From Dietzia lutea (GTDB lineage: Bacteria > Actinomycetota > Actinomycetes > Mycobacteriales > Mycobacteriaceae): a stretch of DNA of 64,000 nt. A model generated the notes under the pieces. The model was not told the origin of the DNA. It ran no database searches and was given only the letters and a program-made list of their open reading frames with translations. Position 1 is the first letter of the stretch. Every line of letters begins with the position of its first letter. Location of the stretch: positions 2,163,001-2,227,000 of the forward strand of contig NZ_CP015449.1 in the NCBI RefSeq assembly GCF_003096075.1. The letters run 5' to 3'. Below are positions 41,218-55,052 of this stretch, in pieces. The translations under genes were made by a program, and so were the position numbers.

Positions 41218-42158
41218 GACAGTCCTCCTGAGGCGCGGCGGTGCCACATGATCGGGTCGGGATCGAGATGCCTGATGTCGGCGCCGGCCTGCGCCAGCAT
41301 CCAGCGCGCGAGCTGACGACGATGGGCCGAGAACGTCAGGTCGTGGGCGACGATCTGGGACAGCAGGAACGACTCGGGTGGGTCACAGAGCGCGTCGATC
41401 ACCCGGTCGCCCCATGCCCCACGGCGTTCCACATCGCGCGTCATGGCCAGCCACCGCGCAGCGATCTCGGAGTGTCGCCGGCGCAGACTCTCGACGTCGT
41501 CCTCCACACTTAGGTCGGGCTCATCCTCTCCCTCGATGCACGCGAGCCACGGCAGCTTGTCCAGGGCCAGATGGCGCAGGACGTCCGCGAGCGACGTCTC
41601 GTCACCCGACCACTCGAGCACCCTGTGTCCCGGCATCCTCTCGCGTCGGTACTCGTCGTCGTCGACCCCCTCGGCGGCGGCGAGCACCGCGGCGGTGTCC
41701 TCGAGGTCGTGCCGGATCATCAGGGCGACGACGTCGCCGGCCGATATCTCCTGCCCCGCGTCGACGTAGAGCACCGTCGGAGAGTGGAAATGGATGCCGT
41801 TCGGTGCAGGCAGCCAGTGGCCTCGGTCGTGTCGCTGCCGCATCGCGCTAGGAGGACACCCGAACGCCCGTGAGAACGCGCGCGAGAAGCCCTCGACCGA
41901 GTCGTACCCCGCCGCGAACGCCGCGTCGGTGACGCTGCGTCCCCCTTGGATCTCCCAGGCCGAGCGCTCGAGGAGGACACGCCGCCGCATCGCCGCCGGC
42001 GCTTCCCCGGCCGCCCGGCTGACCTGGCGACTGAAGTGGAACGACGACGAGTGGGCGTCCGCCGCGAGCGTGTTCAGGACTGCGCCGCCTTCGTGCTCGG
42101 CGAGAACGGCGTCGAGCAACTCGCGGATGCGATCTCGTCCCGGGCGCCGTGCGGTCAT
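41214..42158 (-). CDS. AraC-family regulator with a DinB-like C-terminal domain
   Basis: A 314-residue protein. Residues 1-110 form the AraC double helix-turn-helix (VTDAAFAAGYDSVEGFSRAFSRAFGCPPSAMR), placed unusually at the N-terminus. The rest (VVALMIRHDLEDTAAVLAAAEGV, ETSLADVLRHLALDKLPWLACIEG, HDLTFSAHRRQLARWML) resembles a DinB-type helical bundle with histidines that could bind metal or thiol. It probably senses a ligand through this domain. It is translationally coupled to the reductase gene. The element boundary lies 118 bp upstream of its start. Confidence 0.8.
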   Translation of the reverse strand: MTARRPGRDRIRELLDAVLAEHEGGAVLNTLAADAHSSSFHFSRQVSRAAGEAPAAMRRRVLLERSAWEIQGGRSVTDAAFAAGYDSVEGFSRAFSRAFGCPPSAMRQRHDRGHWLPAPNGIHFHSPTVLYVDAGQEISAGDVVALMIRHDLEDTAAVLAAAEGVDDDEYRRERMPGHRVLEWSGDETSLADVLRHLALDKLPWLACIEGEDEPDLSVEDDVESLRRRHSEIAARWLAMTRDVERRGAWGDRVIDALCDPPESFLLSQIVAHDLTFSAHRRQLARWMLAQAGADIRHLDPDPIMWHRRASGGLS

Positions 42159-42275
42159 GCCTTGATTGTCAGTGGAGCGGGGCGCCTTCGGCTTGACCGT
42201 TCTTGCTCGATGCTCGGCCGGCCGGAATTTGCCCGTGGGCCGTACCGGCCGCCGTCGCGTCTGCGCCGCAGCGCC

Positions 42276-42299
42276 GGCCTAGACGTTGAAGCGGAACTC
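42276..42299. repeat. attL, 24-bp core direct repeat
   Basis: Identical to 53970-53993, beginning GGCCTAGACGTTGAAGCGGA. At this end it is only a duplicate of the ychF 3' tail without the rest of the gene, as expected for the distal att site after integration. Confidence 0.9.
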
Positions 42300-42355
42300 T
42301 AGGCTACACCTCGAAATCCGCTCCTACCTGCGGAGATAGCCCTGCCCACGGTCAG

Positions 42356-42379
42356 CTTAGTCCCGTTCTAGTCCCGTTT
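42356..42379. repeat. Two tandem integrase arm-type sites near attL
   Basis: CTTAGTCCCGTT and CTAGTCCCGTTT lie head to tail 57 bp inside the core. The same motif occurs as a tandem pair near attR (53828-53850), a pattern expected for arm-binding sites of a lambda-type integrase. Confidence 0.65.
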
Positions 42380-42383
42380 GCGC

Positions 42384-43220
42384 CTAAGGAACCTTGTAAA
42401 CGACAGGCGACTCGCGATGTGCTTGCACCAGCGCCACAGCTATCGCCACCACAGATCTTGCCTCCGCTGCTGTCGGGGGCCTTCCCGAGCCGCCGCCGTG
42501 GCGGTTCGAATTGGGCCAGACCGCTTCGAGCGCGCCCACCACGGGGGTGACCGAGTTATTTAATTCTCGTCCTGGAAAAATTGACCGCCACTTGTTCCCG
42601 CTATTGGCCTTAAGTTCACCCAGCGCAGTTCCCAGATTCGACCTCGGCTTGTTAGGAACGACGAGATCAATAAATAGGTGCTCAAGCGCAACGACTGCAT
42701 GATTCCAGGCGTGGGATGGACTCCCGTGAAGCCCATACGCATGGGCCCATGCAAGCTTCAATTCGTCTGAGATTGGATCAGGCACAAAGACGGCAGAATC
42801 CAGCATGGACGCCATCTCGTCGGTCACTCGACGCTCCAGACCAGCGCCTTCTCGGTTGACACACCAAACCGAAGCTCCCGCACCCAATATCTCATCGAGG
42901 CCGCTAGATAAACCGGGGTCCCGAGTTTGATCTAGCGTTGCGTCAATCAAGTCCAAGAAGAACGCAGGCTCCGCAAACGCACGTGCGAGTAGCTGATCTT
43001 TGATTTGGCGACCGTTCGATCTGTGGCCAACTTCTAACCGCATTCTCAGGGCCATATAATGCTGAGGGGCATCCGGGTAGTAACCCAGAGGAGGATTCTC
43101 GTCAAAAGCAGACTCGTACCACTTCGCCAATATGGACTGCAGATGACCCGGGACTCCTTCATACGGTCCGTCGGGTCCGGCCCGTGCCGTTCGCCGCGAG
43201 AGGGGCACCCATTTCTCCAT
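42384..43220 (-). CDS. Possible abortive-infection-type protein (element cargo)
   Basis: A 278-residue soluble protein without a clear family. The C-terminal half (HAWNHAVVALEHLFIDLVVP, LNNSVTPVVGALEAVW, NRHGGGSGRPPTAAEARSVVAIAVALV) has the look of Abi C-terminal/HEPN-like helical domains, where a conserved RHG followed by a long helix closes the protein. GC and codon use are clearly lower than the host genes, indicating recent arrival. It is between the integrase and attL, a usual place for satellite and prophage defence cargo, and probably shares the integrase transcript (28-bp gap). A defence role is inference only. Confidence 0.5.
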   Translation of the reverse strand: MEKWVPLSRRTARAGPDGPYEGVPGHLQSILAKWYESAFDENPPLGYYPDAPQHYMALRMRLEVGHRSNGRQIKDQLLARAFAEPAFFLDLIDATLDQTRDPGLSSGLDEILGAGASVWCVNREGAGLERRVTDEMASMLDSAVFVPDPISDELKLAWAHAYGLHGSPSHAWNHAVVALEHLFIDLVVPNKPRSNLGTALGELKANSGNKWRSIFPGRELNNSVTPVVGALEAVWPNSNRHGGGSGRPPTAAEARSVVAIAVALVQAHRESPVVYKVP

Positions 43221-43248
43221 GCGAGCAGCGTACCCAGGGTCTACGACA

Positions 43249-44562
43249 TCAACGACGTATTTGTCGCACGTTCGTAGGTTCCGCCGGGGCGGCGAAGGCG
43301 TTCGCCATCGCCCCCGACACGAGGTCGGTTGCGTCCGAGTACAGATGTCCGTAGGTGTCCATCGTGATCTTGAAGGACGAATGGCCTAGGTGGGCCTGGA
43401 TTGCCTTGGCAGGGACGTTCGCCGCGATAAGCAGTGCCGCGCAGGTGTGGCGGAGGTCGTGGAACCGGAGGGAGTCCGGTAGCGCCGCCCGAGCCGCCGC
43501 CCGCTTCCAGTACCGCAGGTAGAAGTCCCTCCCCCAGTGCATCGGGAGCTCGTCTCCGTCGTCCCCCGGCCACACGTAGTCCGCCGACTGCGGTCCTCGC
43601 GCCTCGAAGACCGCCCGAAGCTCCTCGGCCATGTCTGGCGTCATCGACACCCACCGCGACTGCCCATTCTTTGGCGGGACGACGTGGAACTCGTCGGCGC
43701 TGAGGGTTGAGATCGACTCGGCGACGTTCACCCGCCCGCGCAGCAGGTCGACGTTCTCCCACCGCAGCCCGCACACCTCTCCCGCCCGGAGGCCGGTCTG
43801 TGCCGCGAACCGGACCATCCGCCCGAAGCTCGCTGCCCTGTCGCTGGGCCGGTACCCCTCCGGGCGATCGCCCTCAACCCCATCCACGACCTCCTCGACC
43901 GCCGAGGCGAGGCGGGCGACCTGTGGTGCGGAGAGAAACGCGACCTCTTCCCGGCGGTGTTTGGGTAAGTCCTCCCGCGTAAGTCCGTCGCAGGGGTTGC
44001 CCCGGAGGTACCGGGAGCGGACCGCCGCGCCGAGAACCTGGTTCATGACCCGAACGGCGTTGTGGACTGTGCCGGGTGCGAGGCCACCCTTGGGCGATTC
44101 GCCGTCGCGCTCAGCCTTGCGCTCGCGATACCTAGCGTCCCGAGTCGTGCGTGACTTCGCGGGGTCGGCGTCCCCCTTGTTGTTGTGGCCGACGCGCTTC
44201 CCCTCGGTCGAGAGGTAGGTAATCCATGCGACGATGTCGAGGGTCGTGATCCCGCCGATGGGACGGCCCCCGAACGTCGGGTAGATGCGTTGGTCGAGAA
44301 TTGTGCGGTAGGCCTGATTGGTCTTAGGGCGGAGGTTCCGCGACTCCAGCCACAGCTCCCCCATCTCCCGCACGGTCCGCCGGGAGTCGGCAGGATCGAT
44401 GTACTCGCCCCGGTCGATGTCAGCCTTCACGCCGTTGAGAAACCGCTTCGCCTCGGTGCGCGAACCGAAGGTCTTGGAGCGGCGTTTGCTGGCGTCGTCG
44501 TACCACCGCACCCGGAATCTCCCTGGTGTCTGCTCCTGGATTGAGTAGCGGTTCGCTCCCAT
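43249..44562 (-). CDS. int: Tyrosine-recombinase integrase
   Basis: A 437-residue phage-type integrase. An AP2-like arm-binding N-terminus (FRVRWYDDASKRRSKTFGSRTEAKRFL) is followed by a SAM-like core-binding domain and the catalytic domain with R259 (TGLRAGEV), H368 and R371 (HDLRHT), H394 (LGHSS) and nucleophile Y404 (MDTYGH). The arm-binding domain agrees with the tandem arm sites found near both ends of the element. It should integrate and excise at the 24-bp ychF core. An insert near residues 120-155, rich in Lys/Arg/Asp, is unusual. ATG 44562 follows the 100-residue gene's stop by one base. Confidence 0.95.
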   Translation of the reverse strand: MGANRYSIQEQTPGRFRVRWYDDASKRRSKTFGSRTEAKRFLNGVKADIDRGEYIDPADSRRTVREMGELWLESRNLRPKTNQAYRTILDQRIYPTFGGRPIGGITTLDIVAWITYLSTEGKRVGHNNKGDADPAKSRTTRDARYRERKAERDGESPKGGLAPGTVHNAVRVMNQVLGAAVRSRYLRGNPCDGLTREDLPKHRREEVAFLSAPQVARLASAVEEVVDGVEGDRPEGYRPSDRAASFGRMVRFAAQTGLRAGEVCGLRWENVDLLRGRVNVAESISTLSADEFHVVPPKNGQSRWVSMTPDMAEELRAVFEARGPQSADYVWPGDDGDELPMHWGRDFYLRYWKRAAARAALPDSLRFHDLRHTCAALLIAANVPAKAIQAHLGHSSFKITMDTYGHLYSDATDLVSGAMANAFAAPAEPTNVRQIRR

Positions 44563-44563
44563 C

Positions 44564-44866
44564 TCAATGCCTCCCTGGGTACGCAACACGGCCGGTGGCT
44601 CGGTGGGTGATGCGGACGATCCTCGTCGCCTTAGGGTGCCCGTTGAGCTTCATCTGCTCTCGCGCCGCTCTCCGCAAGTCCTTGACGATCTGGCCTCGCT
44701 TAGCCCGAGGTTCATCCCACGGCATGAAGTAGTGGACAAACTCACAAGTGGTGGGGAGGTCACTCTCAACCGGAGGTTCGAGCTCAGCGACCCAATGGAA
44801 CTTGGGGTCACGTTCAGTCAGCCCACCGAATGGGGACGCCAACTCCATCGGGTTCTCGTCGTCCAT
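44564..44866 (-). CDS. Hypothetical 100-residue protein between resolvase and integrase
   Basis: A small, charged protein: ENPMELASPFGGLTERDPKF, then a segment with EFVHYFMPWDEP, then a basic helix AKRGQIVKDLRRAAREQMKL and RIVRITHRATGRVAYP. The basic C-terminal half could bind DNA. It is separated by one base from both the resolvase stop and the integrase start, so the three are translated as a block. An accessory role in recombination (directionality factor) is possible, but no excisionase fold is recognisable. Confidence 0.6.
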   Translation of the reverse strand: MDDENPMELASPFGGLTERDPKFHWVAELEPPVESDLPTTCEFVHYFMPWDEPRAKRGQIVKDLRRAAREQMKLNGHPKATRIVRITHRATGRVAYPGRH

Positions 44867-44867
44867 C

Positions 44868-45602
44868 TCAGGCCACCGCCTCTCGCTTGGCCTCGGCCCG
44901 CTCAGCGTTGAGGTACACCCTCCGTACGGTCGAGTGCGCCCAGATCTCGCTGCCTCCCGGCGTGGGCACGCCCTCGTTCGTGAGGCGCTGTGCGATGGCG
45001 ACCGCCGACTTCCCTTCCCTCCGCATGGCCACGATCCGTTCCGCGACCTCGGGCGGCACGCTCGACGGACGACCCAGCCGAACACCGCGAGCTTTCGCAG
45101 CCGCCAGCCCTTCCCGCGTGCGCTCCGAAATTTTGCGCCTCTCCTCAGCCGCCACGGCGAGACGGATGTCCGCGAGGAGTCGCTGGGAGGGGTCGCCGCT
45201 GTCGGCCTTGTCGGTGTCCATGAGTCTCCAGCCCCCGCGCTCGGCTCGTTTGAACAAGCGGGCCGCGTCTTCCTGGTCTCGGGTCGCCCGGTCGAGAGAC
45301 CGCACCAACAGTGCATCCGCTACCCCGGCCTCTACTGCAGCGATAGCGACCTCCCGCCCGTACATCGCCTCGGTCTTCGCCCCGGACACGATGTCGGTCG
45401 TGATCGTCAGCAGCTCGTGCCCGTTCGCCTCGCAGTACCGCTCCAGCGTCGCGCGCTGAGCGTCGAGGCCGTACCCGCTCTCACCCTGGCGAGCGGTAGA
45501 CACCCGGACGTACCCCACGACACGCAACGCCCGCGTGGTCGGTGCGCCAGGTTCCGGGGTCGTGATGGCCGGGGCGGGTCGAGTATCCGGTGGTCGACTC
45601 AT
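44868..45602 (-). CDS. Serine recombinase (resolvase/invertase type)
   Basis: A 244-residue small serine recombinase. The catalytic domain has VGYVRVSTARQGESGYGLDA with Ser35, VRSLDRATRDQEDAARLF and AAEERRKISERTREGL (E-helix), then a C-terminal helix-turn-helix RLGRPSSVPPEVAERIVAMRREGKSAVAIAQRL. It is of resolvase size, not the large integrase type, so it more likely resolves multimers or inverts a segment than integrates the element. ATG preceded by GGAAAG. First gene of the resolvase-100aa-int-cargo block. Confidence 0.9.
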   Translation of the reverse strand: MSRPPDTRPAPAITTPEPGAPTTRALRVVGYVRVSTARQGESGYGLDAQRATLERYCEANGHELLTITTDIVSGAKTEAMYGREVAIAAVEAGVADALLVRSLDRATRDQEDAARLFKRAERGGWRLMDTDKADSGDPSQRLLADIRLAVAAEERRKISERTREGLAAAKARGVRLGRPSSVPPEVAERIVAMRREGKSAVAIAQRLTNEGVPTPGGSEIWAHSTVRRVYLNAERAEAKREAVA

Positions 45603-46135
45603 GTTTTCTTTCCTGCCTTTCTTGAATCCTCCGCGGTGCATTCCCGCCATTCCCAGATCGGAAACGTCGGAACCTTCCGTATACGAACTTTCTACCCGAC
45701 TTTTCGACGCGCCGCTAATTACCTAATCCGACTAAACATTGCATTCCAGACAGGGAAATCAGACCTTCTCAGCGGCACGGACAGTTCGGCCACTTTCGCC
45801 CACTTATTCGCCATTCTCCGGCTGCGGATTCACCTTCCTGAGCCGTCGTTCCGAACCCGGGCCTCAGGCCGGGACAGTTGGCGCTAGAGGGTGACAATTG
45901 TCGCTCCCGACTAGCTCGACTCCCGAGGGTTCCGCGAGAAGGAGCGAGCGCGACAGGCGCCGTGGCGGATGCTCGCCGCCCCCACTTCCGCTCCCAGCCG
46001 CGCTAGCGCCACACCGGACGTCCGGACCTGCCTGCCTGACCTGCTCCTACCTCGCAGATCAGCGCAGCCGATCAGGGGCACCTGGATCCTGACGCTGGAC
46101 GCGCCCACGCGCATGAACCAGGCCCCTCCTCCTAC
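45603..46135. other. Intergenic region between resolvase operon and origin
   Basis: About 530 bp without a credible gene. The right part before the resolvase (45620-45780) is comparatively AT-rich and should hold the promoter for the recombinase operon. GACAATTGTC at 45893-45902 is a perfect 10-bp palindrome within a wider imperfect dyad, a possible operator. The remainder shows no coding pattern. Confidence 0.5.
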
Positions 46136-46279
46136 AGCGGGGAAGCGGGGAGCGTTCCCCGCTTTCGGTTCGCGACTCCCTATACCCGCGATTGATATTT
46201 TGAGATTTACCTTGTTTTATAAGAATCGAGTTACGGCGCGGTCGCGGGAGAAGCGGGGAAGAGTTCCCCGCTCCCCGCT
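46136..46279. other. Candidate replication origin: six symmetric iterons around an AT-rich core
   Basis: The 8-bp unit AGCGGGGA occurs at 46136-46143 and 46144-46151, inverted (TCCCCGCT) at 46156-46163; then direct at 46252-46259 and inverted at 46265-46272 and 46272-46279. The two triplets are mirror images (++- and +--). Between them 46177-46233 is strikingly AT-rich for this genome (GATATTTTGAGATTTACCTT and TTTTATAAG). The array starts right at the stop codon of the prim-pol gene. SaPI origins have the same plan: iteron sets flanking an AT-rich segment next to the primase/helicase gene. Confidence 0.7.
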
Positions 46280-48623
46280 ATTTCTCCGGGCCGTCTCGAA
46301 CGATCCGACAACGCTTTACTAACCTGCCATTTCCCGCTTTCCCCTCTTCGGATTCGACTTGGCCTGAAGAAATTAGAGATTGGAGCACCTCCTCCGCCTT
46401 AGACTGCTTCGAACTGTGAAATAGCTTGATTAATGCACGCCACTGAATCCAGCCCTCGCCGCTATCTGATTCCTCGGCGAGTTTGGCCAGGAGCTTCCTA
46501 GCTACCCTCCCCCGCAGTTCCTTCTCCTCGTCCGTGGCGGCTGCTCGTGCTGCCTCGCGCCTGCCTCGCGCGCGGTCGCTCTGCTTCTGCGCTTGGCGGA
46601 GCGCGTCCTGAGTCGCGCGTCGAGTCTCCTCGCTTTTCGCCATCACCGCCCCGGCGAGCTCCCAGTCCTCCTCCGTGATCTCGCGCTCCCGGCCCGCCAG
46701 AAACATCAACCCCGCCGAGACTTTGAGCTGGACTTGGTAGCGGTGGCCGTCGAGGGGGTCTAGCTGGCCTTGTGCAGATCGCAGTCGATGGTCTCGGATC
46801 TCTTTTCGTACCCGTTCGGGTATGCGGAGGGGGCGAAAGTCGCCTTCCCCCATCGGTCGCGTGACGTCGAACTCCGCGTCGCTCGGGCTGGTTCCCATCG
46901 CGCCGTTCGGTCGTCTGCCCCACCGCCATTCCCGGCAGTCCAGCGGTTCGGGTAGTTCGGGAAGGTCGGCCTCCGATTCGAAGCGCTGCTGGAGCATGGC
47001 CGGCATCCACAGGAACCTCTGTGGGGTGCCTCCGTCCGCGTCCGCGAACATCGCTTCCGCGCGTGCCTCCTGTACGCCCATGACGAGGCAAAGGCGATAG
47101 CGGTGAGGTTGGACGGGGATGTCTTTGGTGCGATCTGCGTAGGCCTTTCCGAGCCGCTCACCGGACCACGCTTTGCGTAGCTCGGGCATCAGCGTCGCAC
47201 CCGACCTCCCGGCCACGGCGGTGAGATTGTCGATTTCGTCGACTGAGAACAGCACTCGATCCCGTTGCGGGACGAGCACCAACTTCTTGTCGACGGTTTT
47301 GTAGTAGGCGTACTGCTTAGCGATGCCCTCGCCGGACCCCAGTTCGTGCTCGTGGGTCTGTCGGTTAGTCCGGAGGAAGTCGTCCGCCGACCGCATCGCG
47401 GTTCCCTTGCCGGAGCCGGACGGACCGACGATGTTCACGAAGAGGTTGAGCGAGCCGTAGCCCCCCACGGTTGGCGGTAGCACCACATCGGGCGGCACCA
47501 TCGCGAGTGTTCGCGCGAGCACCGCCCCGAGCACGGCCCACGGCTCCGCGATCCTCGCTAGCGCATAGTCACGCAGCTTCTCCAGCTCCGGGCGCGCGGC
47601 CCAAAATTCCTCCTCTAGCCGCCGGTCGTCGCGCCCGACTTTCGCGCGGGTCTCCTCGGAGTCCGATGCGACGGCTTGCGCTGCGGCGTAGCGGGCTGCG
47701 CGGTCGAACTCGATTTCCGGGACGTCCCGACCCTCGGCAACCTCTCCCTCTGCGAAGCGCTCGATAAACACTGCTCTCAAGGAGTCGTAGACCTGGCGGG
47801 CCGGGTACAACCCGGCGTACGCCTCTCGAAAGCCCCAACACAGTGCCTCGACGACGGCTTCATGGCGAGAGCGGCTTCCTCCGCCGCATTGCCCATCTCG
47901 CCGTGCGTGCGAGTCGAACCACCCCAGTGGACCCCCGACAGCCTCAGGCCGATCAGCGGTGGTGAAGGAGTCCAGGAAGGTTTCCAGCTCCTCGGCGGTA
48001 GTTGCCGTGGCGCTCTGAACCTTGGGCGTACTGAGGCACTCTCGAAGTTTCGTGGGCAGCGGCGGCACCGCGCCGAACCGCGCCCACGAGTAGCAACCTC
48101 CCTGTTCGGCGTCCCTATGGATCGTCGGGGCGACGACGATGACGCCATTCTGACCACGGACCTCACCGTAAGGACTGAACGCCCCGGCACTGTTGGAGAA
48201 TCTATCGTTCGGATCGGTCGCGAAAATGTAGTGGCCTCGGGAACCTTCTCTGCGGGTGTGCTGAAACGAGCCGACCCGTAGGTCTGCGGCGAACTTCCCG
48301 GGCAGTTCGTCTTGGTCTAGGTCGAACGCCACCGCGCCCGACCGTCCGACGTGGAGCGCGATTCCGCGATCCGGGTAATCTGCGAACCAGTCACAGATCA
48401 CCTCCGGGTCCCGGCTCGACTCCTCCGTCCACTTCCCAACAATCGAACCGGGATTCTTCTCGCCAGAAGCAAGCGGAAGTACGTACCACCCCGCCTCGGC
48501 GTATTCGAGTGCGGCTTCTAGTACACCCAGACGGGACACATCGGGGATTAGTAGCTGCGTGGCGGGACGACACTCGGCGAGAACCGGCATCTTGCCGGAT
48601 CGGTTACGTTTATTCGGGGACAC
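46278..48623 (-). CDS. Primase-polymerase with C-terminal P-loop domain, satellite replication protein
   Basis: A 781-residue protein. The N-terminal bifunctional primase/polymerase domain (about 30-200) has GWYVLPLASGEKNP, the metal-binding AFDLDQ (D101, D103) and GHYIFA with a conserved His. The C-terminal half has a Walker A, GPSGSGKGT (400-408), and Walker B, VLFSVDEID (457-465), as in DUF3987/superfamily 3-like helicase domains. The last 100 residues are charged helical and end with a winged-helix-like segment that could bind the adjacent iterons. It should initiate replication of the excised element. GTG start with AAAGGA upstream. Confidence 0.85.
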   Translation of the reverse strand: MSPNKRNRSGKMPVLAECRPATQLLIPDVSRLGVLEAALEYAEAGWYVLPLASGEKNPGSIVGKWTEESSRDPEVICDWFADYPDRGIALHVGRSGAVAFDLDQDELPGKFAADLRVGSFQHTRREGSRGHYIFATDPNDRFSNSAGAFSPYGEVRGQNGVIVVAPTIHRDAEQGGCYSWARFGAVPPLPTKLRECLSTPKVQSATATTAEELETFLDSFTTADRPEAVGGPLGWFDSHARRDGQCGGGSRSRHEAVVEALCWGFREAYAGLYPARQVYDSLRAVFIERFAEGEVAEGRDVPEIEFDRAARYAAAQAVASDSEETRAKVGRDDRRLEEEFWAARPELEKLRDYALARIAEPWAVLGAVLARTLAMVPPDVVLPPTVGGYGSLNLFVNIVGPSGSGKGTAMRSADDFLRTNRQTHEHELGSGEGIAKQYAYYKTVDKKLVLVPQRDRVLFSVDEIDNLTAVAGRSGATLMPELRKAWSGERLGKAYADRTKDIPVQPHRYRLCLVMGVQEARAEAMFADADGGTPQRFLWMPAMLQQRFESEADLPELPEPLDCREWRWGRRPNGAMGTSPSDAEFDVTRPMGEGDFRPLRIPERVRKEIRDHRLRSAQGQLDPLDGHRYQVQLKVSAGLMFLAGREREITEEDWELAGAVMAKSEETRRATQDALRQAQKQSDRARGRREAARAAATDEEKELRGRVARKLLAKLAEESDSGEGWIQWRALIKLFHSSKQSKAEEVLQSLISSGQVESEEGKAGNGRLVKRCRIVRDGPEK

Positions 48624-48737
48624 AGCGAGTCCTTTCGGCAGCGCGATACCCCGCCGCCAGCCAAGTCGGGACCAATGGGCGGCGGGGTCGCGTGTCTTAC
48701 GAGGGATGTGGCGGAGTTCGCCAGAAGGGAGCGGCGG

Positions 48738-49148
48738 CTACTCGTCGTCCAGCTCGCTCAGCGGCGGGACTTCGGTGAGCTCCACGCCCGCCTCGTCGGC
48801 CTCGTGGCGGAGAATGGCGGCGTGCCGGTTACACAGGACGACCGGGATATGGACCATCCCCACGGACACCACGAACAACGGGGCGTCGAGAACGACGGGT
48901 CGCCGATGGTCTCCCCCGACGTGTTCGAACGGCCCCGGCGATACGCACCGGTCACACGCCACGATGCAGCCTCGGTCTCGTGCCAGTCGCCAGGTCTCGC
49001 GCTCCACCAACCGGGCGAACCTCAAGGAATTCATCCCGTGTGGGATGACGAGGTGGTGTATCTCGTCGCGAATGTCGGTGTCCGAGCGCCCGTACTCCTC
49101 CACGAGCGTCTCGTCCCCATCGGCAAAGCCGGTCAGTCGAGCCTTCAC
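48738..49148 (-). CDS. Hypothetical element protein with cysteine pairs
   Basis: A 136-residue protein not recognised. It has an R-rich helix RFARLVERETWRLARDRG followed by ACDRC and later LCNRHAAIL, so a zinc-binding knuckle is possible. The acidic end (ELTEVPPLSELDDE) precedes a 114-bp gap to prim-pol. GTG start overlaps the previous stop by 4 bp. Probably part of the replication/excision operon. Confidence 0.6.
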   Translation of the reverse strand: MKARLTGFADGDETLVEEYGRSDTDIRDEIHHLVIPHGMNSLRFARLVERETWRLARDRGCIVACDRCVSPGPFEHVGGDHRRPVVLDAPLFVVSVGMVHIPVVLCNRHAAILRHEADEAGVELTEVPPLSELDDE

Positions 49149-49477
49149 ATACGGACGGTGAACCAGCAGGCAAGGCTGCGACGGGTCCCCTCAGCAGATT
49201 CCGCGAGCAGACTTTGGACCGCCAACGAGTCACGGGCGTTCCAGTCGGGCACGAACTCTCCCGGAGGAGGAGAGACACGCGCACCCAACCCGCCCGCGCG
49301 GGCCACACCCGCGAACCACGCGAACCATTCCATCCGGCGAAATCCCGGCGAATAGCTCGGAGCGGCGAGTTGATCCGCGAGCGCAGACGTCAGCGGTTCA
49401 CCCAGCTTCGAGTGGTGGTCGATGCCCACGCTGTACTCATGCGCCAGCTCATCAGGATTTATCCGGTCGTTGCTCAT
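49145..49477 (-). CDS. Hypothetical element protein
   Basis: A 110-residue protein not recognised. MSNDRINPDELAHEYSVGID and EWFAWFAGVARAGGL suggest a helical aromatic-rich core. It overlaps both neighbours by 4 bp (ATGA upstream, GTGA downstream), so expression is tied to the Xis-like gene before it. No function proposed. Confidence 0.6.
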   Translation of the reverse strand: MSNDRINPDELAHEYSVGIDHHSKLGEPLTSALADQLAAPSYSPGFRRMEWFAWFAGVARAGGLGARVSPPPGEFVPDWNARDSLAVQSLLAESAEGTRRSLACWFTVRM

Positions 49478-49758
49478 GCGGCGTCACCACCCGTACCGCC
49501 CTCGACTCGGAACGACGCAACCCAGGCCAGCACATCATTCTCCGAATAAACGTTTGAGTTGCCAATTCGGTGGGCGACGAGCTTGCCGGCCCAGGTTTGA
49601 TGCTTGATGAACCGTTCAGTGATGCCAGGGATGCCGAGCCCATCGCAGAAGGTCACTACCTCGGGGCGCAGCATTGTCGGTACGTCACGGCGCACTTCTT
49701 CTGGAACATCGCCAGCGGCTACCGCGAGCGCTAGCGGGACTTTCGTCTGTCGGGACAT
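49474..49758 (-). CDS. Xis/AlpA-like small DNA-binding protein
   Basis: A 94-residue protein with a winged-helix segment PGITERFIKHQTWAGKL, VAHRIGNSNVYSENDVLAWV, the arrangement of MerR/Xis/AlpA-type domains (helix, wing with an arginine, closing helix). Proteins of this kind act as excisionases or as activators of integrase and satellite genes. It is first in the leftward operon Xis-110aa-136aa-prim-pol, preceded by the strong ribosome-binding site GGAGGAG and by a terminator-like hairpin in its leader. Role as recombination directionality factor is inferred. Confidence 0.65.
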   Translation of the reverse strand: MSRQTKVPLALAVAAGDVPEEVRRDVPTMLRPEVVTFCDGLGIPGITERFIKHQTWAGKLVAHRIGNSNVYSENDVLAWVASFRVEGGTGGDAA

Positions 49759-50300
49759 GATTCACGCTCCTCCTGGAGCAGTACCCAGAAACGCAAAAAG
49801 CCGCACTAGGACACCGCTCCACGTTTGTGGATTGGATGTCCCGTCCGGCTTCACGTCTGGTGGTCCCAAGCCTCTGAAGAGGCCCCGCAGCGTCCGGATA
49901 CTTCGCTCCCGCCGCTAACGGCGAGTCACTACTACCTATCTCGGGTTACCACTGCGCGATTCGCGTGCCACTGTGCAGTCCGCTCGGGCGACCGGCTACA
50001 CAGACGGGTTCTTCTTAGGATGAAGGTCGCCGAAGCGACCCTTCTTAAACGATACTACCCGATCTCGCGACGGCTTCGATCCGGTCGCGGTCGCCGCGTG
50101 AGACGCTTCTAGATTAGGGCTGTGGCCTGGAGAAACGGGACCGCCCGTCCCCTCCCGCCGCAGGCGTATCGTCCCCCCCGTCGGCGTCGGGGACGCCGCA
50201 GGAACTACCGCCGACCGCGCAGCCAGGGGCAGCCAAGACAGGGCGGATCAACGAAATCTGCAGCCGACCCGGCTACCCAATCTTGATTCGAGGCTCACCT
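49759..50300. other. Divergent control region with several small hairpins
   Basis: About 540 bp between the leftward replication operon and the rightward capsid gene, with no credible protein gene. It holds compact hairpins CCTC-TGAA-GAGG (49871-49882), CGCCG-CTAA-CGGCG (49910-49923) and GGTCGC-CGAA-GCGACC (50025-50040), plus a repeated CTTCTTA on each side of the last. The tetraloop-like form suggests structured RNA. Promoters for both directions must lie here but I cannot place them confidently. Confidence 0.5.
49795..49851 (-). terminator. Terminator-like hairpin in the leader of the Xis/prim-pol operon
   Basis: On the minus strand AAGCCG pairs with CGGCTT and GGACA with TGTCC across an internal loop, and TTTTT follows at once. 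It stands about 37 nt before the Xis ATG, so it would stop leftward transcripts before the operon unless read through. It may end a small leader RNA. Confidence 0.5.
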
Positions 50301-51452
50301 ATGAACACCTACCGCTACCCCCAACTGACCGGCAGCGACGGCACCGCCCCCGGCGGCTACGTCACCGAGGGCGACGTCCTCGTCAACTCCACCGCCGACG
50401 GCGTAGGCCTCAACGCGATCTACGCCGAGTACCGCGAGTCGCTGGAGCTGTACAACGCCGAACGGTCCGCGCTCGTGTCGCTACTGTCGTTCTCGACCAC
50501 GCGGGCATTCGACACCGTGCCGCAGGGTGCTCTGTCGGAGGGGTTCGAACTGGCGTCAGAGTTCGGCGTGCCGAAGGCAGCCGGGGTGCCGGTCGATGAA
50601 CTCCGCCTCGGCTACACCTTCCAGGACTACGATCGCGCATCTCGTCTCACTTGGCGGGCGTTGCGGGATATGACGCAAGAACAGGTCGATTCGGTCCACC
50701 GCGGGATCCTGGAGGCGAGCAACCGTCTCGTCACGACCTCGATCCTGGCGCGGCTGTTCGACCCGACCCAGGACCTGTCCCCCGAGGGCAACGCGGTCTA
50801 CGGCCTCTTTAACGCCGACGGGACCCACATTCCGGACTTTATGGGCCGGTCGTGGGACCCGGCGGCCACGAGCCACTACCTCACTTCCGGCTCCGCGACC
50901 ATCGACCCTTCCGACGTGGAGAGCCTCATTCGGATGGTCAAGCTCAAGGGCCACACAGCCTCCGGGCAGCGCCTCCTGCTGCTGGTGAACCCGAGCGAGT
51001 CCGAGACCATCGCCTCATTCCGCGTGGGCGTCGAGTCCGCCGACCTCACCCGCGCCCGGTACGACTTCGTGCCTTCCGGGACCGCCCCAGCGAGGTACGT
51101 GACCGAGCGGCTAGAGGGCGCGGCCCCGCCGGTCGAGTACGGCGGGCTGCCAGTGATCGGGTCCTACGGGGATGCGCTCGTGATCGAGTCGATGTTCGTT
51201 CCCTCCGGGTACGTGGCGATGGTCGCCAGCGGCGGACCCAACTCCGAACGCAACGTCGTCGGACTCCGGGAGCATCCCAACCCCGCCTATCGAGGCTTGC
51301 GGCTCATTCCCGGCAACCAGCAGCGGTACCCGCTAGTGGAGAGCTTCTACGCCCAGTCGTTCGGCGTCGGTGTTCGACGCCGAGGCGCGGCCGCCGTCGT
51401 GCAGCTCACCCCCGACGCGACGTACACCGCGCCGTCGGACCGGAAGTGGTGA
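50301..51452 (+). CDS. Major-capsid-like protein (probable HK97 fold)
   Basis: A 383-residue protein. After an N-terminal stretch comes a helix AIYAEYRESLELYNAERSALVSLL, then a beta-rich middle (FDTVPQGALSEGFELASEFG), a mid-protein LVNPSESETIASFR and a C-terminal block with RLIPGNQQRYPLVESFYAQSFGVGVRRRGAAAVVQ; the last block is what I associate with actinobacteriophage capsid proteins. Size fits a HK97-type major capsid subunit without a scaffold-like delta domain. No protease, portal or terminase gene is near. ATG 50301 is chosen over TTG 50283. Assignment is by pattern, not by search. Confidence 0.65.
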   Translation: MNTYRYPQLTGSDGTAPGGYVTEGDVLVNSTADGVGLNAIYAEYRESLELYNAERSALVSLLSFSTTRAFDTVPQGALSEGFELASEFGVPKAAGVPVDELRLGYTFQDYDRASRLTWRALRDMTQEQVDSVHRGILEASNRLVTTSILARLFDPTQDLSPEGNAVYGLFNADGTHIPDFMGRSWDPAATSHYLTSGSATIDPSDVESLIRMVKLKGHTASGQRLLLLVNPSESETIASFRVGVESADLTRARYDFVPSGTAPARYVTERLEGAAPPVEYGGLPVIGSYGDALVIESMFVPSGYVAMVASGGPNSERNVVGLREHPNPAYRGLRLIPGNQQRYPLVESFYAQSFGVGVRRRGAAAVVQLTPDATYTAPSDRKW

Positions 51453-51643
51453 CCGCGATGCTCGGCGGCGACTTCCGCAAGCAATCGACCGAGGCTCAGC
51501 GCGCTCCCGCCGGGACGCTCGAACCCGGCGCGGGCGAGTTCTCCTGGGGGCCGGGGCTGGCTCCTCCGGGCGTTGCGCCCTACCGGGGCCGCGAGGCCTC
51601 TGCCACGCTCAACGCAGCGCCTCGCCGCAAGCGCACGAGCTAA
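51449..51643 (+). CDS. Small protein coupled to the capsid gene
   Basis: A 64-residue Pro/Gly/Ala-rich basic-ended peptide (MLGGDFRKQSTEAQRAPAG, GEFSWGPGLAPPGVAPYRG, PRRKRTS). Its GTG overlaps the capsid TGA by 4 bp, the best evidence that it is translated. It could decorate or size the capsid, in analogy with satellite size-redirecting proteins, but nothing in the sequence proves this. Confidence 0.5.
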   Translation: MTAMLGGDFRKQSTEAQRAPAGTLEPGAGEFSWGPGLAPPGVAPYRGREASATLNAAPRRKRTS

Positions 51644-51957
51644 CTACCCGCAGACTCCCGGCGCGGCGGCCTCTTGTTCCTCCTGCCGCGCCGAGCGCTC
51701 CGGGCCTGCCTCCCCGGAGCACGCAACCCTCGCCACTGCCTGCTACAGCTACGGGGAGCGACGAAGGGCGGCTGGTCTGTTCGATATGTCACAGCAGCCC
51801 CCAAGCCGGAACTCCGGACTCGAGACCAGTCGACTTGTCCTGGTTCGGGCGGCGAGTCCGGCACGGCCCCACCGTGGTTCACGAGCCACCCGCCGGGGCC
51901 GACCCGGCTCGCTTCCGCACTCGCGTTGTCCGAAGTCCGAGCCACAACAGCGAAAAG
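51644..51957. other. Non-coding stretch after the capsid genes
   Basis: About 310 bp. Several overlapping frames stay open in both strands but none has a ribosome-binding site or protein-like composition. I see nothing in it apart from the terminator that follows. Confidence 0.5.
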
Positions 51958-52005
51958 CCGAGCGCGCTACCAGCACCATTCAGTGCGGGCAGCACGCTCG
52001 GTTTT
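51958..52005. terminator. Terminator between capsid genes and ParB-fold gene
   Basis: CCGAGCGCGCT pairs with AGCACGCTCGG (one mismatch) across a 22-nt loop and is followed by TTTT; AAAA precedes it, so it can work for the convergent genes on both strands. Confidence 0.6.
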
Positions 52006-52010
52006 GCAGC

Positions 52011-52826
52011 TCAGAGCACGATCTTTGTAGTTTCGGAACGCCGTCCCTTATTCCAGGTCTCCACAATCATGTGGTAACAGGTCATCACTCGCCCACCCGT
52101 TCCTGAGTGCTGAGTTCCACCGCTGGTGCTTCGAGCATGGACATCCGCCTTCCACTTCCAGGCAGGATTGCGCTTTCCAAGCTTCTTTGCCAACTCATCG
52201 TCACTGGTGATTTGTTCACCGTGCCGGCCAATGAACTCTCCTAGACCACCCAGCAGCATCCCGTCCCACGTCTCCGCAGTCCTGCCCCAAGCTTCCTCCG
52301 CAACAGCCAAAGTTCGGTCTAGGGTCTCAGCACCGTAGCGATCAGTGATCCGGAGCACTCCATTCACTGCCCCGATTGCATTGACACTGGTGCTGCCCAT
52401 CGAAAGCTTGTGCTTCGTGACGACCTTGTCGGTGTCCACGAAGAGTGGAATTCCACCAGTGAGACCGATGTGATACTCGTCGATGGCGGAGGGACGGCTT
52501 GACTCGCGGTTCTTGATGAGGAAAAGAATTGCTTCCTCGGTCTGGGTGAGTCCCTTATGGACCTCGCAGATCACATGCTGTCGCTCGAGAAGCTGGCTGG
52601 CCCGCCAACGGTGCTGCCCATCGACAATGTATTTCTCGCCCGACTCGCGCTCGGAGACGATGATCGTGCCGACCGCTTCCGGAATGAACGTGTCAGCAAG
52701 CTTCTGTGCCCGCTTCTCATTCAGCGTGCGCTGCGCCTGGGGGTCAATCTTGAGTTCGTCGGTCGGCACCTTGACGCCGTACTCAACCTTGTGGTCGGGC
52801 AGCTTGTACTCATAGCTCTTCGCCAT
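52011..52826 (-). CDS. ParB/sulfiredoxin-fold protein (DUF6551-like)
   Basis: A 271-residue protein. VPTDELKIDPQAQRTLNEKRAQKLADTF followed by KYIVDGQHRWRASQLLE (D69 to S77) is the ParB-N box II motif, here with GQHR in place of GERR, typical of phage-borne ParB-like NTPases/nucleases. A helical C-terminus ends with a basic stretch. The start ATG has AGGAGATCGATC upstream. In satellites and phages such proteins may act in partition, transcription control or DNA modification; which applies here is unknown. Composition is lower in GC than host genes. Confidence 0.75.
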   Translation of the reverse strand: MAKSYEYKLPDHKVEYGVKVPTDELKIDPQAQRTLNEKRAQKLADTFIPEAVGTIIVSERESGEKYIVDGQHRWRASQLLERQHVICEVHKGLTQTEEAILFLIKNRESSRPSAIDEYHIGLTGGIPLFVDTDKVVTKHKLSMGSTSVNAIGAVNGVLRITDRYGAETLDRTLAVAEEAWGRTAETWDGMLLGGLGEFIGRHGEQITSDDELAKKLGKRNPAWKWKADVHARSTSGGTQHSGTGGRVMTCYHMIVETWNKGRRSETTKIVL

Positions 52827-52971
52827 GATCGATCTCCTGTTGTGAAGTGCGCCGGGGGGAATGTGCCTGGATAGCGGCTCTTGGGAGTAGCGCACCAACA
52901 CACTAACTCACGTCGGACCTGATGCGCAAGCTTAGTCCACTTTAGATTCAGATCTCACGTCGCTCCTCGTG

Positions 52972-53721
52972 TCAAATCTCGCGCTGCGGCATAGACCCAA
53001 TGCGGACACCTCGGAGCTCAGCCGGAGTGGTCCAAGGCGTCCGATGAACCATGCGGTGGCAGTTCGAGCAGAGAAGAGCCAAGTCAGAGAGCTTGGTCGT
53101 CGTCTCGCCAGATTCCGAGAGCGGCTTCACGTGGTGGACCTCTATGTAGTCGCGCCCTCGCTCGCCATACGTCGCCTCAAAGTCAAACTCACACACATCA
53201 CAAGCCAGCGGCTTTCCCGCCTTGCGAACGTGCGCGATCTTGGCTCGACGGAGTTTCGGGTCTCGCTCTCGGCGAAGGTGCCTCGCAAGCAAGACTCTCC
53301 CTTCGCTTGCTTCCTCAAGTTCGAAGTCAACGTCATCAACCACGTCCGACATCGGAAAAGCCGAGTGCACTGGCTCCCTCGCCTCAAGTGAGGCTCGGAT
53401 TGAGTCCGCCTTCCGGAGAAAAATCTCAGGGTCAGCCAGCAGCTCTTCTAGGACAAGCCGATCAGTCTTTCCACCACGCGTCGGCTTTCCCGTGTAGTCC
53501 GGCCGATGCGTGGCTACATCAGACATCTTTCGGGCAACCCCATTGGGGTTCCGAAAGTCCTCACCCCGAACCACTAGCGGATGGATGTCAGCGGCGTTGA
53601 GGACCGCCGAGAGTTCCTGGACCTCCACTGTTTCAGGACCCAGATACTTCCATCCAGCCCGGTAGGCGACAGCCGCAGCAATCGCAATTTCGTCATAGGT
53701 CCAATTCGGCGGTCGTACCAT
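52972..53721 (-). CDS. HNH endonuclease, possible restriction cargo
   Basis: A 249-residue protein with a C-terminal HNH nuclease: zinc cysteines C174 and C177 (ACDVC), the HH pair in YIEVHHVKPLSE (196-197), and CSNCHRMVH (C218, C221). The N-terminal 150 residues begin with WTYDEIAIAAAVAYRAGWK and a segment HPLVVRGEDFRNPNGVARKMSDVATHRPDY that resembles the specificity part of McrA-like or other defence HNH enzymes. It stands alone next to attR, outside the replication and capsid blocks, the usual place for cargo. Packaging HNH proteins are smaller, so I favour defence. Confidence 0.75.
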   Translation of the reverse strand: MVRPPNWTYDEIAIAAAVAYRAGWKYLGPETVEVQELSAVLNAADIHPLVVRGEDFRNPNGVARKMSDVATHRPDYTGKPTRGGKTDRLVLEELLADPEIFLRKADSIRASLEAREPVHSAFPMSDVVDDVDFELEEASEGRVLLARHLRRERDPKLRRAKIAHVRKAGKPLACDVCEFDFEATYGERGRDYIEVHHVKPLSESGETTTKLSDLALLCSNCHRMVHRTPWTTPAELRGVRIGSMPQREI

Positions 53722-53827
53722 GCCTCAGACGTTAGCCCGTGGCTACGACATCCCCGCCGGTTCGGGCCTTCGCGAGGCGGGCGCGGGGTTGATTCTTCCC
53801 GGAGTCGGTCCCCTCCTCGCGTGCGGG

Positions 53828-53850
53828 CTTAGTCCCGTCTTAGTCCCGTT
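53828..53850. repeat. Two tandem integrase arm-type sites near attR
   Basis: CTTAGTCCCGT occurs twice head to tail (53828-53838, 53839-53849), 120 bp from the core repeat. It matches the pair at 42356-42379 in the same orientation. In the excised circle the two pairs would flank the core as the P and P' arms. Confidence 0.65.
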
Positions 53851-53969
53851 CGGAGGCGATGCGGAGGCGTCCGACCCCGGACCGGAACCGACTCAAAGGA
53901 AACCGAAACCGGCTGGTCAAAGCCAGGTTTTGGAGCGTCGTTAGCCTGTCTTCGCAGGTCGCAGAATCG

Positions 53970-53993
53970 GGCCTAGACGTTGAAGCGGAACTC
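53970..53993. repeat. attR, 24-bp core direct repeat within the ychF 3' end
   Basis: Identical to attL (42276-42299). It contains the ychF stop codon and the codons for its final residues (VEFRFNV), so integration leaves the protein unchanged. Confidence 0.9.
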
Positions 53994-55052
53994 CACCACG
54001 TCGCCGTCGGCCATGACGTAGTCCTTGCCCTCCATGCGCACCTTGCCGGCCGCCTTGGCCGCGGCCATCGAGCCGGCCGCGTCGAGGTCCTCGAACGAGA
54101 CGATCTCCGCCTTGATGAAGCCCTTCTCGAAGTCGGTGTGAATGACGCCGGCGGCCTTGGGGGCGGTGTCGCCCTTGCGGATCGTCCAGGCGCGCGACTC
54201 CTTGGGTCCGGCGGTGAGGTAGGTCTGCAGCCCGAGGGTGTGGAAGCCGGCGCGCGCGAGGGCGGCCAGGCCGGGCTCGGTCTGGCCGATCGACTCGAGC
54301 AGCTCCATGGAGTCCTCCTCGTCGAGCTCCTGGAGCTCGGCCTCGACCTTGGCGTCGAGGAACACGGCGTCGGCGGGCGCGACGGCGGCGCTGAGCTCGG
54401 CCTTGCGCTCGTCGCTCGTCAGCACCGACTCGTCGGCGTTGAAGACGTAGAGGAAGGGCTTGGCGGTCATGAGGTGCAGGTCGCGCAGCACGCCGCGGTC
54501 GATCTCGTCCTGGGCCTTGAACAGGGTGCGCCCGTCCTCAAGCACGGCCTGGGCCTTGCGGATCTCCTCGAGCTGGGCCACCAGCGACTTGTCCTTGCGG
54601 GCGTCCTTCTCGATCCGCGGCAGCGCCTTCTCGATGGTCTCGAGGTCGGCGAGGATCAACTCGGTCGCGATCACCTCGATGTCGGCCATCGGGTCGACCC
54701 TGCCGTCGACGTGGATGACGTCGGGGTCGTCGAAGACGCGCACGACCTGGCAGATGGCGTCGGCCTCGCGGATGTTGGCGAGGAACTTGTTGCCCATGCC
54801 CTCGCCGGTGCTGGCGCCTTTGACGATGCCGGCGATGTCGACGAACGACACCACGGCGGGCAGGATCCGCTCGGAGCCGAAGATCTCCGCGAGTCGGTTG
54901 AGGCGGGGATCGGGCAGGTCGACCACGCCGATGTTGGGCTCGATGGTGGCGAACGGGTAGTTCGCCGCGAGGGCGTCGTTGTTCGTCAGGGCGTTGAACA
55001 GGGTCGACTTACCGACGTTGGGCAGTCCGACGATTCCGAGGGTGAGGCTCAC
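53973..55052 (-). CDS. ychF: Redox-regulated ATPase/GTPase YchF
   Basis: A 359-residue OBG-family P-loop protein. G1 is [21 protein letters not shown]3 is [21 protein letters not shown], and the NADE in place of NKxD explains its preference for ATP (YVFNADES). A TGS domain closes the protein ([27 protein letters not shown]). YchF binds ribosomes and tunes the oxidative stress response. GTG start after a leaderless TAGACT box. Its stop lies inside attR of the satellite element; without the element the next gene downstream would be the AraC/reductase operon. Confidence 0.96.

Follow-up and report, generated by a model that had tools for sequence, protein, structure and literature searches.

What kind of element has settled at the 3' end of ychF in Dietzia lutea, and why does it hold a phage capsid gene? 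The question is raised by a 64,000-nucleotide stretch of the genome (NZ_CP015449.1, positions 2,163,001 to 2,227,000; hereafter the window, numbered from its first letter), in which an earlier note, made from the letters without database searches, had proposed a compact satellite-like insertion at positions 42276 to 53993. Our analysis indicates that this element is very probably an integrated phage satellite, one of a family that is widespread in actinobacteria and has retained a capsid gene of its own. Such a satellite would make its own shell and borrow the packaging motor, portal and tail of a helper phage. The sequence-level support comes from integration at the 3' end of ychF, an integrase clade that tracks the attachment site, a replication protein and a capsid under purifying selection. 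The window copy is a fairly well preserved member of this broad family.

Integration at the 3' end of ychF

As the earlier note had stated, the insertion is bounded by GGCCTAGACGTTGAAGCGGAACTC, a 24-bp exact direct repeat whose copies lie 11,694 bp apart (Table 1). In 20 triplet-shuffled copies of 16 kb the longest exact direct repeat measured 13-16 bp, against 24 bp in the real sequence. The right-hand copy overlaps the last codons and the stop of ychF, which is itself intact, and the inserted DNA has a G+C content of 63.7% compared with 71.5% in the flanks sampled. A profile scan with the alignment of the ychF integrases retrieved Rhodococcus ruber IEGM 1391, Tsukamurella conjunctivitidis HKU72 and Rhodococcus sp. 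UNC23MFCrub1.1, which correspond to loci already counted in the family described below (L081, L082 and L109) and add no extra cases; two further matches were remote, at 25-28% identity. All three loci lie beside ychF and carry the 15-bp core GTTCCGCTTCAACGT repeated 12.4-12.5 kb apart; with the window included, the core repeats of the four ychF elements are 11.7-12.5 kb apart. The earlier placement of a satellite-like element at the 3' end of ychF is therefore supported by 50 related family loci and by three independent ychF-integrated relatives.

Pairs of GGG[A/G]CTA, with units 11 bp apart, lie near both ends and are putative integrase arm sites. They were found 128-140 bp inside the ychF-side core in all four ychF elements and, as the exact pattern, 59-60 bp inside the distal core in two of the four, the other two having degenerate-looking pairs. 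The pattern was derived from the same four elements in which the pairs were counted; it is expected 0.0125 times per letter-shuffled element and did not occur outside the elements in the sequence searched.

We located the ychF end clearly in 22 of the 23 genomes of the genus, with only a weak 38-bp match in G017. The two nearest relatives, G004 and G009, have one ychF core each and a left flank matching window positions 41300 to 42211, but flank and core are separated by 528 bp of other DNA, compared with 64 bp in the window. The empty sites that the earlier note had suggested looking for in close relatives thus exist as element-free sites, although not as perfectly clean ones. In G009 the 528 bp that are foreign to the window lie on contig C71 (L006, 973-1500).

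On contig C4 of G003 a second, 21-bp copy of the ychF tail lies about 1.23 kb from ychF (L036, 728-748 and 1978-2145), and what appears by eye to be a HigA/RelE-type module sits between the copies, possibly a separate integration at ychF. On contig C57 of G007 the ychF end continues directly into TTAGTCCCGT, which is the arm-site motif known from the window element (L186, 8310-8335), either as a scar of imprecise excision or by chance. Contig C51 of the same genome has extra ychF-tail fragments (L185, 9153-9173, 10562-10590 and 13350-13482), one of 133 bp and 81% identity at the contig end. G014 was considered as a second ychF insertion and rejected, its two contigs overlapping within the ychF tail.

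Integrases follow the attachment site

The integrase of the window, recognized as such in the earlier note, is of the tyrosine type and is 60-64% identical to the three other ychF integrases. Identity within the ychF group is 60-83%, compared with 23-33% to seven others, and the four integrases from tRNA-Gly sites are 52-75% alike. A search for flanking repeats in 42 loci gave eight with repeats of at least 44 bp over a tRNA gene (four Gly, two Leu, one Lys and one Met) and four at ychF; the remaining 30 have no assigned site, although in one of them, L094, a 14-bp repeat lies within a tRNA-Leu gene. A second recombinase, a small serine enzyme that went unmentioned in the earlier note, behaves differently: among 11 loci compared, that of the window resembles its counterparts in the four tRNA-Gly loci at 53-63% and those in the other ychF loci at only 41-43%. 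Since integrase identity follows the attachment site and that of the serine recombinase does not, integrase and site appear to travel together and apart from the rest of the element. On the same grounds we rejected the serine recombinase as the site-choosing enzyme.

Distribution and gene order of the family

At a threshold of 1e-10 the capsid gene was found in 47 of 401 sampled genomes of the host family, spread over 12 of its 31 genera, as 52 match rows in 50 loci; 42 rows were examined first (the window's own, G003 and 40 fetched loci), and the other ten rows represent eight loci. Only two of the 23 genomes of the genus carry it, the window's own included, a sporadic presence far from the element content being fixed in all relatives. 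In a sample of the class, nine of 394 genomes matched, five of them in the host family. Four loci from other families all have the capsid, small terminase and serine recombinase genes, three a replication match and two an integrase match.

We analyzed gene content in 43 loci, namely 42 chromosomal ones and the viral contig L118. A small helix-turn-helix (HTH) gene occurs in 38, a serine recombinase in 36, a replication protein of any type in 36, a small-terminase-like gene in 30 and an integrase in 28, several of the gaps coming from loci cut by contig ends or by a 20-kb limit. Integrase, serine recombinase, replication gene and capsid follow in this order in 24 of the 25 loci that have all four, with the first three on the same strand; L102 is the sole exception. 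Among the profiles tried, L105 matched only for the capsid and c3 (Table 1), and L111 only for the capsid and small terminase. The last eight loci keep the serine recombinase and replication gene only in L202 and L204, and the capsid gene is in two pieces in L204 and L205 and partial in L206-L209. With L103, these loci indicate that elements of the family also decay in place.

This conserved layout bears on the idea of an integrative plasmid-like element that moves by other means and carries the capsid gene as a passenger. Integrase, primase-polymerase (prim-pol) and resolvase would be enough for such a life. The capsid gene, with the small terminase in most loci, is nevertheless conserved in layout where the cargo is not, an argument weakened by the fact that the loci were found by their capsid gene; moreover, none of 72,556 plasmid records match, and no conjugation gene was named by Pfam or NCBIfam among ten window proteins. 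We consider a plasmid-like element extremely improbable.

Capsid phylogeny and selection

What the earlier note had called a capsid-like gene proved to be a much stronger match than that wording implied. The protein is homologous over residues 10-378 of 382 to PDB entries 8giu (4e-81) and 8saj (1e-74), which are probably the Patience and Adjutor capsid structures, because such a major and minor capsid protein are described in PMC10635136. The family phrog_3990, annotated as major head protein, gave no match in 14 control genomes, and tblastn of the capsid matched 152 of 50,697 phage records, all below 60% identity.

In a phylogenetic tree, 42 satellite capsids and 59 phage capsids were split by a single branch (bootstrap 97, Shimodaira-Hasegawa-like approximate likelihood ratio test 99), and a quicker preliminary tree gave the same branch. 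The rows were labelled by gene content, three short ones (L103, L175 and L176) were excluded, and the phage rows came from one IMG/VR search plus phage Zany, so that phages outside this sample could break the split. As the root is the midpoint, we infer, rather than observe, that the satellite capsids are one clade. With this rooting L110-L112 branch first among the satellites. In L110 and L111 the small-terminase-like gene lies directly beside the capsid gene, unlike the usual layout. The satellite capsid genes are under purifying selection, judging from the ratio of nonsynonymous to synonymous substitution rates in eight sister pairs (0.06-0.27 by NG86; 0.02-0.07 by YN00 in seven pairs).

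The phage minor capsid protein has no detected homologue in the satellite loci. Zany gp14, annotated as a 'major capsid pentamer protein', was renamed minor capsid after its PDB relatives 8saj_3 and 8giu_1, which are so named.

Small terminase and the search for other phage genes

Beside the capsid, one further gene links the family to phages. The proteins of cluster c2 have phrog_3678, of unassigned function, as their best PHROG (1.5e-9), followed by the small terminase phrog_10899 (2.6e-4), and no Pfam match. Ten of 60 phage contigs, some being near copies of each other, are matched by the c2 profile (E 3e-20 to 7e-4). In each of the ten, the large terminase is preceded on its own strand by the matching open reading frame (ORF), at a distance of 65 to 4,210 bp; because of this position we call c2 small-terminase-like.

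Thirteen proteins of phage Zany (terminase, portal and 11 more) found no match at 1e-4 in 41 family loci, the window excluded, although every one of 60 IMG/VR phage contigs matches one or more of them. For a broader test we took 420 plus-strand ORFs of at least 80 aa, many of which are not real genes, from 11 related phage loci and compared them with 55 loci, made up of the 50 family loci, the four found elsewhere in the class and L118. The capsid was matched in 55/55 and the small terminase in 23/55 (21/43 in the gene-content set, 0/8 in the last eight loci and 2/4 in the other families); beyond these two genes we found a single 38-aa stretch in L106, and the window element was matched by capsid ORFs only. 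As a control, the same ORFs were compared with 50 other phage contigs; none had fewer than 40 matching ORFs (median 73.5), and this minimum also held for the 44 of these contigs without a 90%-identical match. The test covers some 10 kb to either side of the capsid gene and would miss head genes belonging to quite different phages. Within the window itself, searches of Pfam, PHROGs and NCBIfam with ten proteins gave no large terminase, portal, tail or lysis gene, which agrees with the absence of terminase, portal, tail and lysis genes described in the earlier note, and no full structural gene set was found elsewhere in the insertion. The element thus combines an integrase and attachment repeats with an incomplete set of particle genes.

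Could this incomplete set be what is left of a full prophage that lost its terminase, portal, tail and lysis genes, the capsid surviving by chance? The broken or partial capsid genes of L204-L209 and a split ORF in the window copy would fit such a history. However, dozens of loci, at tRNA as well as ychF sites, show this reduced gene set, the satellite capsids sit on one branch instead of being scattered among the sampled phage capsids, their genes are under purifying selection, and only the capsid and small terminase of related phages were ever found. Chiefly because the reduced set recurs and the capsids form one branch, we regard a decayed prophage as highly improbable.

Free forms, helpers and a model of transfer

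Several observations weigh against the phage satellite that we favour. Excision, induction, packaging and a helper were not observed. The capsid gene is in none of the plasmid records, only one of 61 viral contigs carrying it is satellite-type, and free or packaged forms were not seen in the plasmid and viral collections searched. No small-terminase-like gene was found in the window (six frames, filters off; best E 0.74), which is one of nine loci that have the serine recombinase and lack this gene. The search for a clean empty site gave none, as both of the nearest relatives have other DNA beside the core. In seven of the 55 loci (L035, L076, L092, L104, L111, L118 and L201) the absence of head genes is only partly tested, the sequence reaching less than 7 kb on one side of the capsid gene. 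Finally, other members of the family are plainly decayed, and the window copy may itself be partly worn, since a single 254-aa ORF of G003 is split here, by decay or by sequencing error.

The scarcity of free forms, together with a defence-like nuclease among the cargo and the undetected minor capsid homologue, could also point to a domesticated island that does not transfer. Its capsid protein would then act for the host, either as a decoy against phages or as a compartment resembling an encapsulin. Integrase, matching attachment cores, arm-like pairs, a replication gene and a small terminase in 30 of the 43 loci argue instead for movement and packaging, and we hold a domesticated island to be highly improbable. 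A mixed role, in which a satellite also harms its helpers, may apply.

For an integrated satellite, the genes suggest the following course. Infection by a helper phage would lead to excision of the element through the integrase and the small HTH protein; the excised circle would replicate with its own prim-pol/helicase, and the serine recombinase would resolve multimers. The satellite capsid protein would then form the shell, helper terminase and portal would load satellite DNA, and helper tails would join. Most relatives would direct packaging with their own small terminase; the window copy, having none that we recognized, would need that of the helper by way of a mimicked packaging site, or would encode an unrecognized protein. 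The resemblance of both capsid and small terminase to genes from a single group of phages hints at helpers of that kind, without proving it. In the genome of the window no PF04860 portal was found (the same search matched four of 14 control genomes), nor a Zany-type portal in a search without a positive control of its own; no resident helper of that kind is therefore visible.

We further propose, tentatively and with somewhat less than even confidence, that these elements are a distinct actinobacterial satellite lineage. Here a single dedicated capsid protein, on a branch apart from the sampled phage capsids and without a minor capsid protein, would alone set a small capsid, with portal, motor and tail borrowed from the helper. 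Integrase and attachment site would be exchanged as one module, as in the window, where a ychF-type integrase accompanies a serine recombinase like those of tRNA-site elements, and the conserved resolvase would break multimers arising in replication down to single units ahead of integration or packaging.

Gene content of the window copy

Read from the distal end, the minus strand carries a 278-aa cargo gene, the tyrosine integrase, the small serine recombinase, the prim-pol/DUF3987 gene, two overlapping ORFs and the small HTH gene; the capsid gene and a 61-aa ORF follow on the plus strand, and then the ParB/DUF6551 and HNH genes on the minus strand (Table 1). The prim-pol named in the earlier note was borne out by domain matches. 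Its Xis-like gene is weak when taken alone but gains from the related small HTH genes of the family, and its origin-like DNA holds imperfect GC-rich inverted repeats around an AT-rich stretch without being established as an origin. The HTH part of the serine recombinase has one weak stretch of similarity to a small-terminase family (E 0.02).

No Pfam, PHROG, NCBIfam or PADLOC family matched the 278-aa protein, and neither the small ORF between the two recombinases nor the ParB/DUF6551 gene gave a tblastn match in 41 family loci. The HNH nuclease was the sole match of PADLOC among nine window proteins; this McrA-like enzyme and its neighbours are cargo that plausibly serves in defence against competing phages.

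Table 1. Coordinates and supporting matches of features of the element and its attachment site
Feature	Position	Strand	Evidence or remark
Distal attachment core (24-bp repeat, copy 1)	42276..42299		Shared core GTTCCGCTTCAACGT in four ychF elements
Putative integrase arm-site pair, distal side	42355..42378	-	Two GGGACTA units 11 bp apart
Cargo, 278-aa protein	42384..43220	-	Relatives in 4 other loci of 43 (L089, L100, L106, L109)
Tyrosine integrase, ychF-targeting clade	43249..44589	-	PF00589 9e-23
Uncertain small ORF, about 100 aa, between the two recombinases	44564..44866	-	ORF list
Small serine recombinase, resolvase/invertase type, 260 aa	44868..45650	-	PF00239 5e-30
Imperfect GC-rich inverted repeats around AT-rich stretch, beside primase 3' end	46136..46279		Terminator or origin candidate
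Prim-pol/DUF3987 helicase-like replication protein	46278..48623	-	PF09250 2e-22; DUF3987 1e-8
136-aa ORF	48738..49148	-	With the 110-aa ORF matches one 254-aa ORF of the G003 relative
110-aa ORF	49145..49477	-	With the 136-aa ORF matches one 254-aa ORF of the G003 relative
Small HTH protein, excisionase-like or regulator	49474..49758	-	phrog_1840 excisionase 0.006; HTH_17 0.003
Major capsid protein	50304..51452	+	phrog_3990 4e-101; PDB 8giu, 8saj
61-aa ORF directly 3' of capsid gene	51458..51643	+	In frame matching profile c3 (34/43 loci), which partly overlaps other frames of the capsid gene
Cargo, ParB-like/DUF6551 protein	52011..52826	-	Family profile match
Cargo, HNH nuclease resembling McrA-type (type IV) restriction enzymes	52972..53721	-	PADLOC type IV 1.5e-7; PDB 6ghc 9e-6
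Putative integrase arm-site pair, ychF side	53827..53850	-	Two GGGACTA units 11 bp apart
ychF-side attachment core (24-bp repeat, copy 2)	53970..53993		Exact direct repeat
ychF, intact, host attachment gene	53973..55052	-	359 aa

Significance

The loose label 'integrase plus capsid' can here be replaced by an element family with a fixed gene order, a capsid branch of its own, attachment sites and candidate arm sites. A satellite with one capsid gene of a structurally solved type, and no minor capsid protein detected, offers a direct test of what share of its shell a parasite has to encode itself. For Rhodococcus and its relatives, the integrase clade at ychF and its core and arm-like sites might also serve for site-specific integration.

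Comparison with known systems

Capsid-forming phage-inducible chromosomal islands (cfPICIs) carry a full head and packaging set, unlike the present family, which has the capsid alone, plus a small terminase in most relatives. Both encode their own capsid, and those of the cfPICIs fall into three clades within the phage capsid tree (PMC11389934). Classical Gram-positive phage-inducible chromosomal islands (PICIs), including the Staphylococcus aureus pathogenicity islands (SaPIs), resemble the family in integrase, regulator, replication gene, cargo and a size of about 15 kb or less, with a small terminase in many of our relatives (PMC6092414). The absence of phage structural genes is one of their listed features, whereas the family keeps a major capsid gene. 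Their definition further comprises induction that depends on phages and attachment sites that prophages never use. The Patience/Adjutor-like phages share a homologous major capsid and have in addition a minor capsid protein and a hexamer stabilizer, gp4 (PMC10635136); the minor capsid protein went undetected in the satellite loci.

Among actinobacteria, the Streptomyces satellites MulchRoom and MiniFlayer likewise encode a capsid, within a block of packaging and capsid genes and with no obvious replicase, and the Flayer satellite seems not to integrate (PMC10690885); our element differs in having a replication gene and one capsid gene and in being integrated. Prophages attached beside ychF, on its upstream side, are already known from pneumococcus (PMC6375853, PMC8637289), a point that corrects the earlier note. 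Among the papers listed by the literature searches, which leave subscription papers and supplements aside, we found no report of a 3'-end ychF site or of this capsid lineage.

The earlier note's further view, that no family with this combination had been described, did not hold. Candidate PICIs of Mycobacterium, phiRv1 and phiRv2 among them, have been defined by integration machinery plus a major capsid gene; some have replication and terminase genes, and helper induction was not shown (PMC10654092). The three tyrosine-integrase examples drawn there use tRNA genes, and the phiRv1 type has a large serine recombinase as its integrase, unlike the tyrosine enzyme of the window, whose serine recombinase is small. 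By their description, these islands share with our family the integrase, the major capsid gene and, in relatives, the tRNA sites. The family departs from that description in its ychF site, in having an additional, small serine recombinase (36 of 43 loci), in a single capsid lineage related to 8giu and 8saj, and in its spread over 12 of 31 genera. Integrase-plus-capsid candidates have already been published for Mycobacterium, and the ychF-site element can be read as a variant of this known kind.

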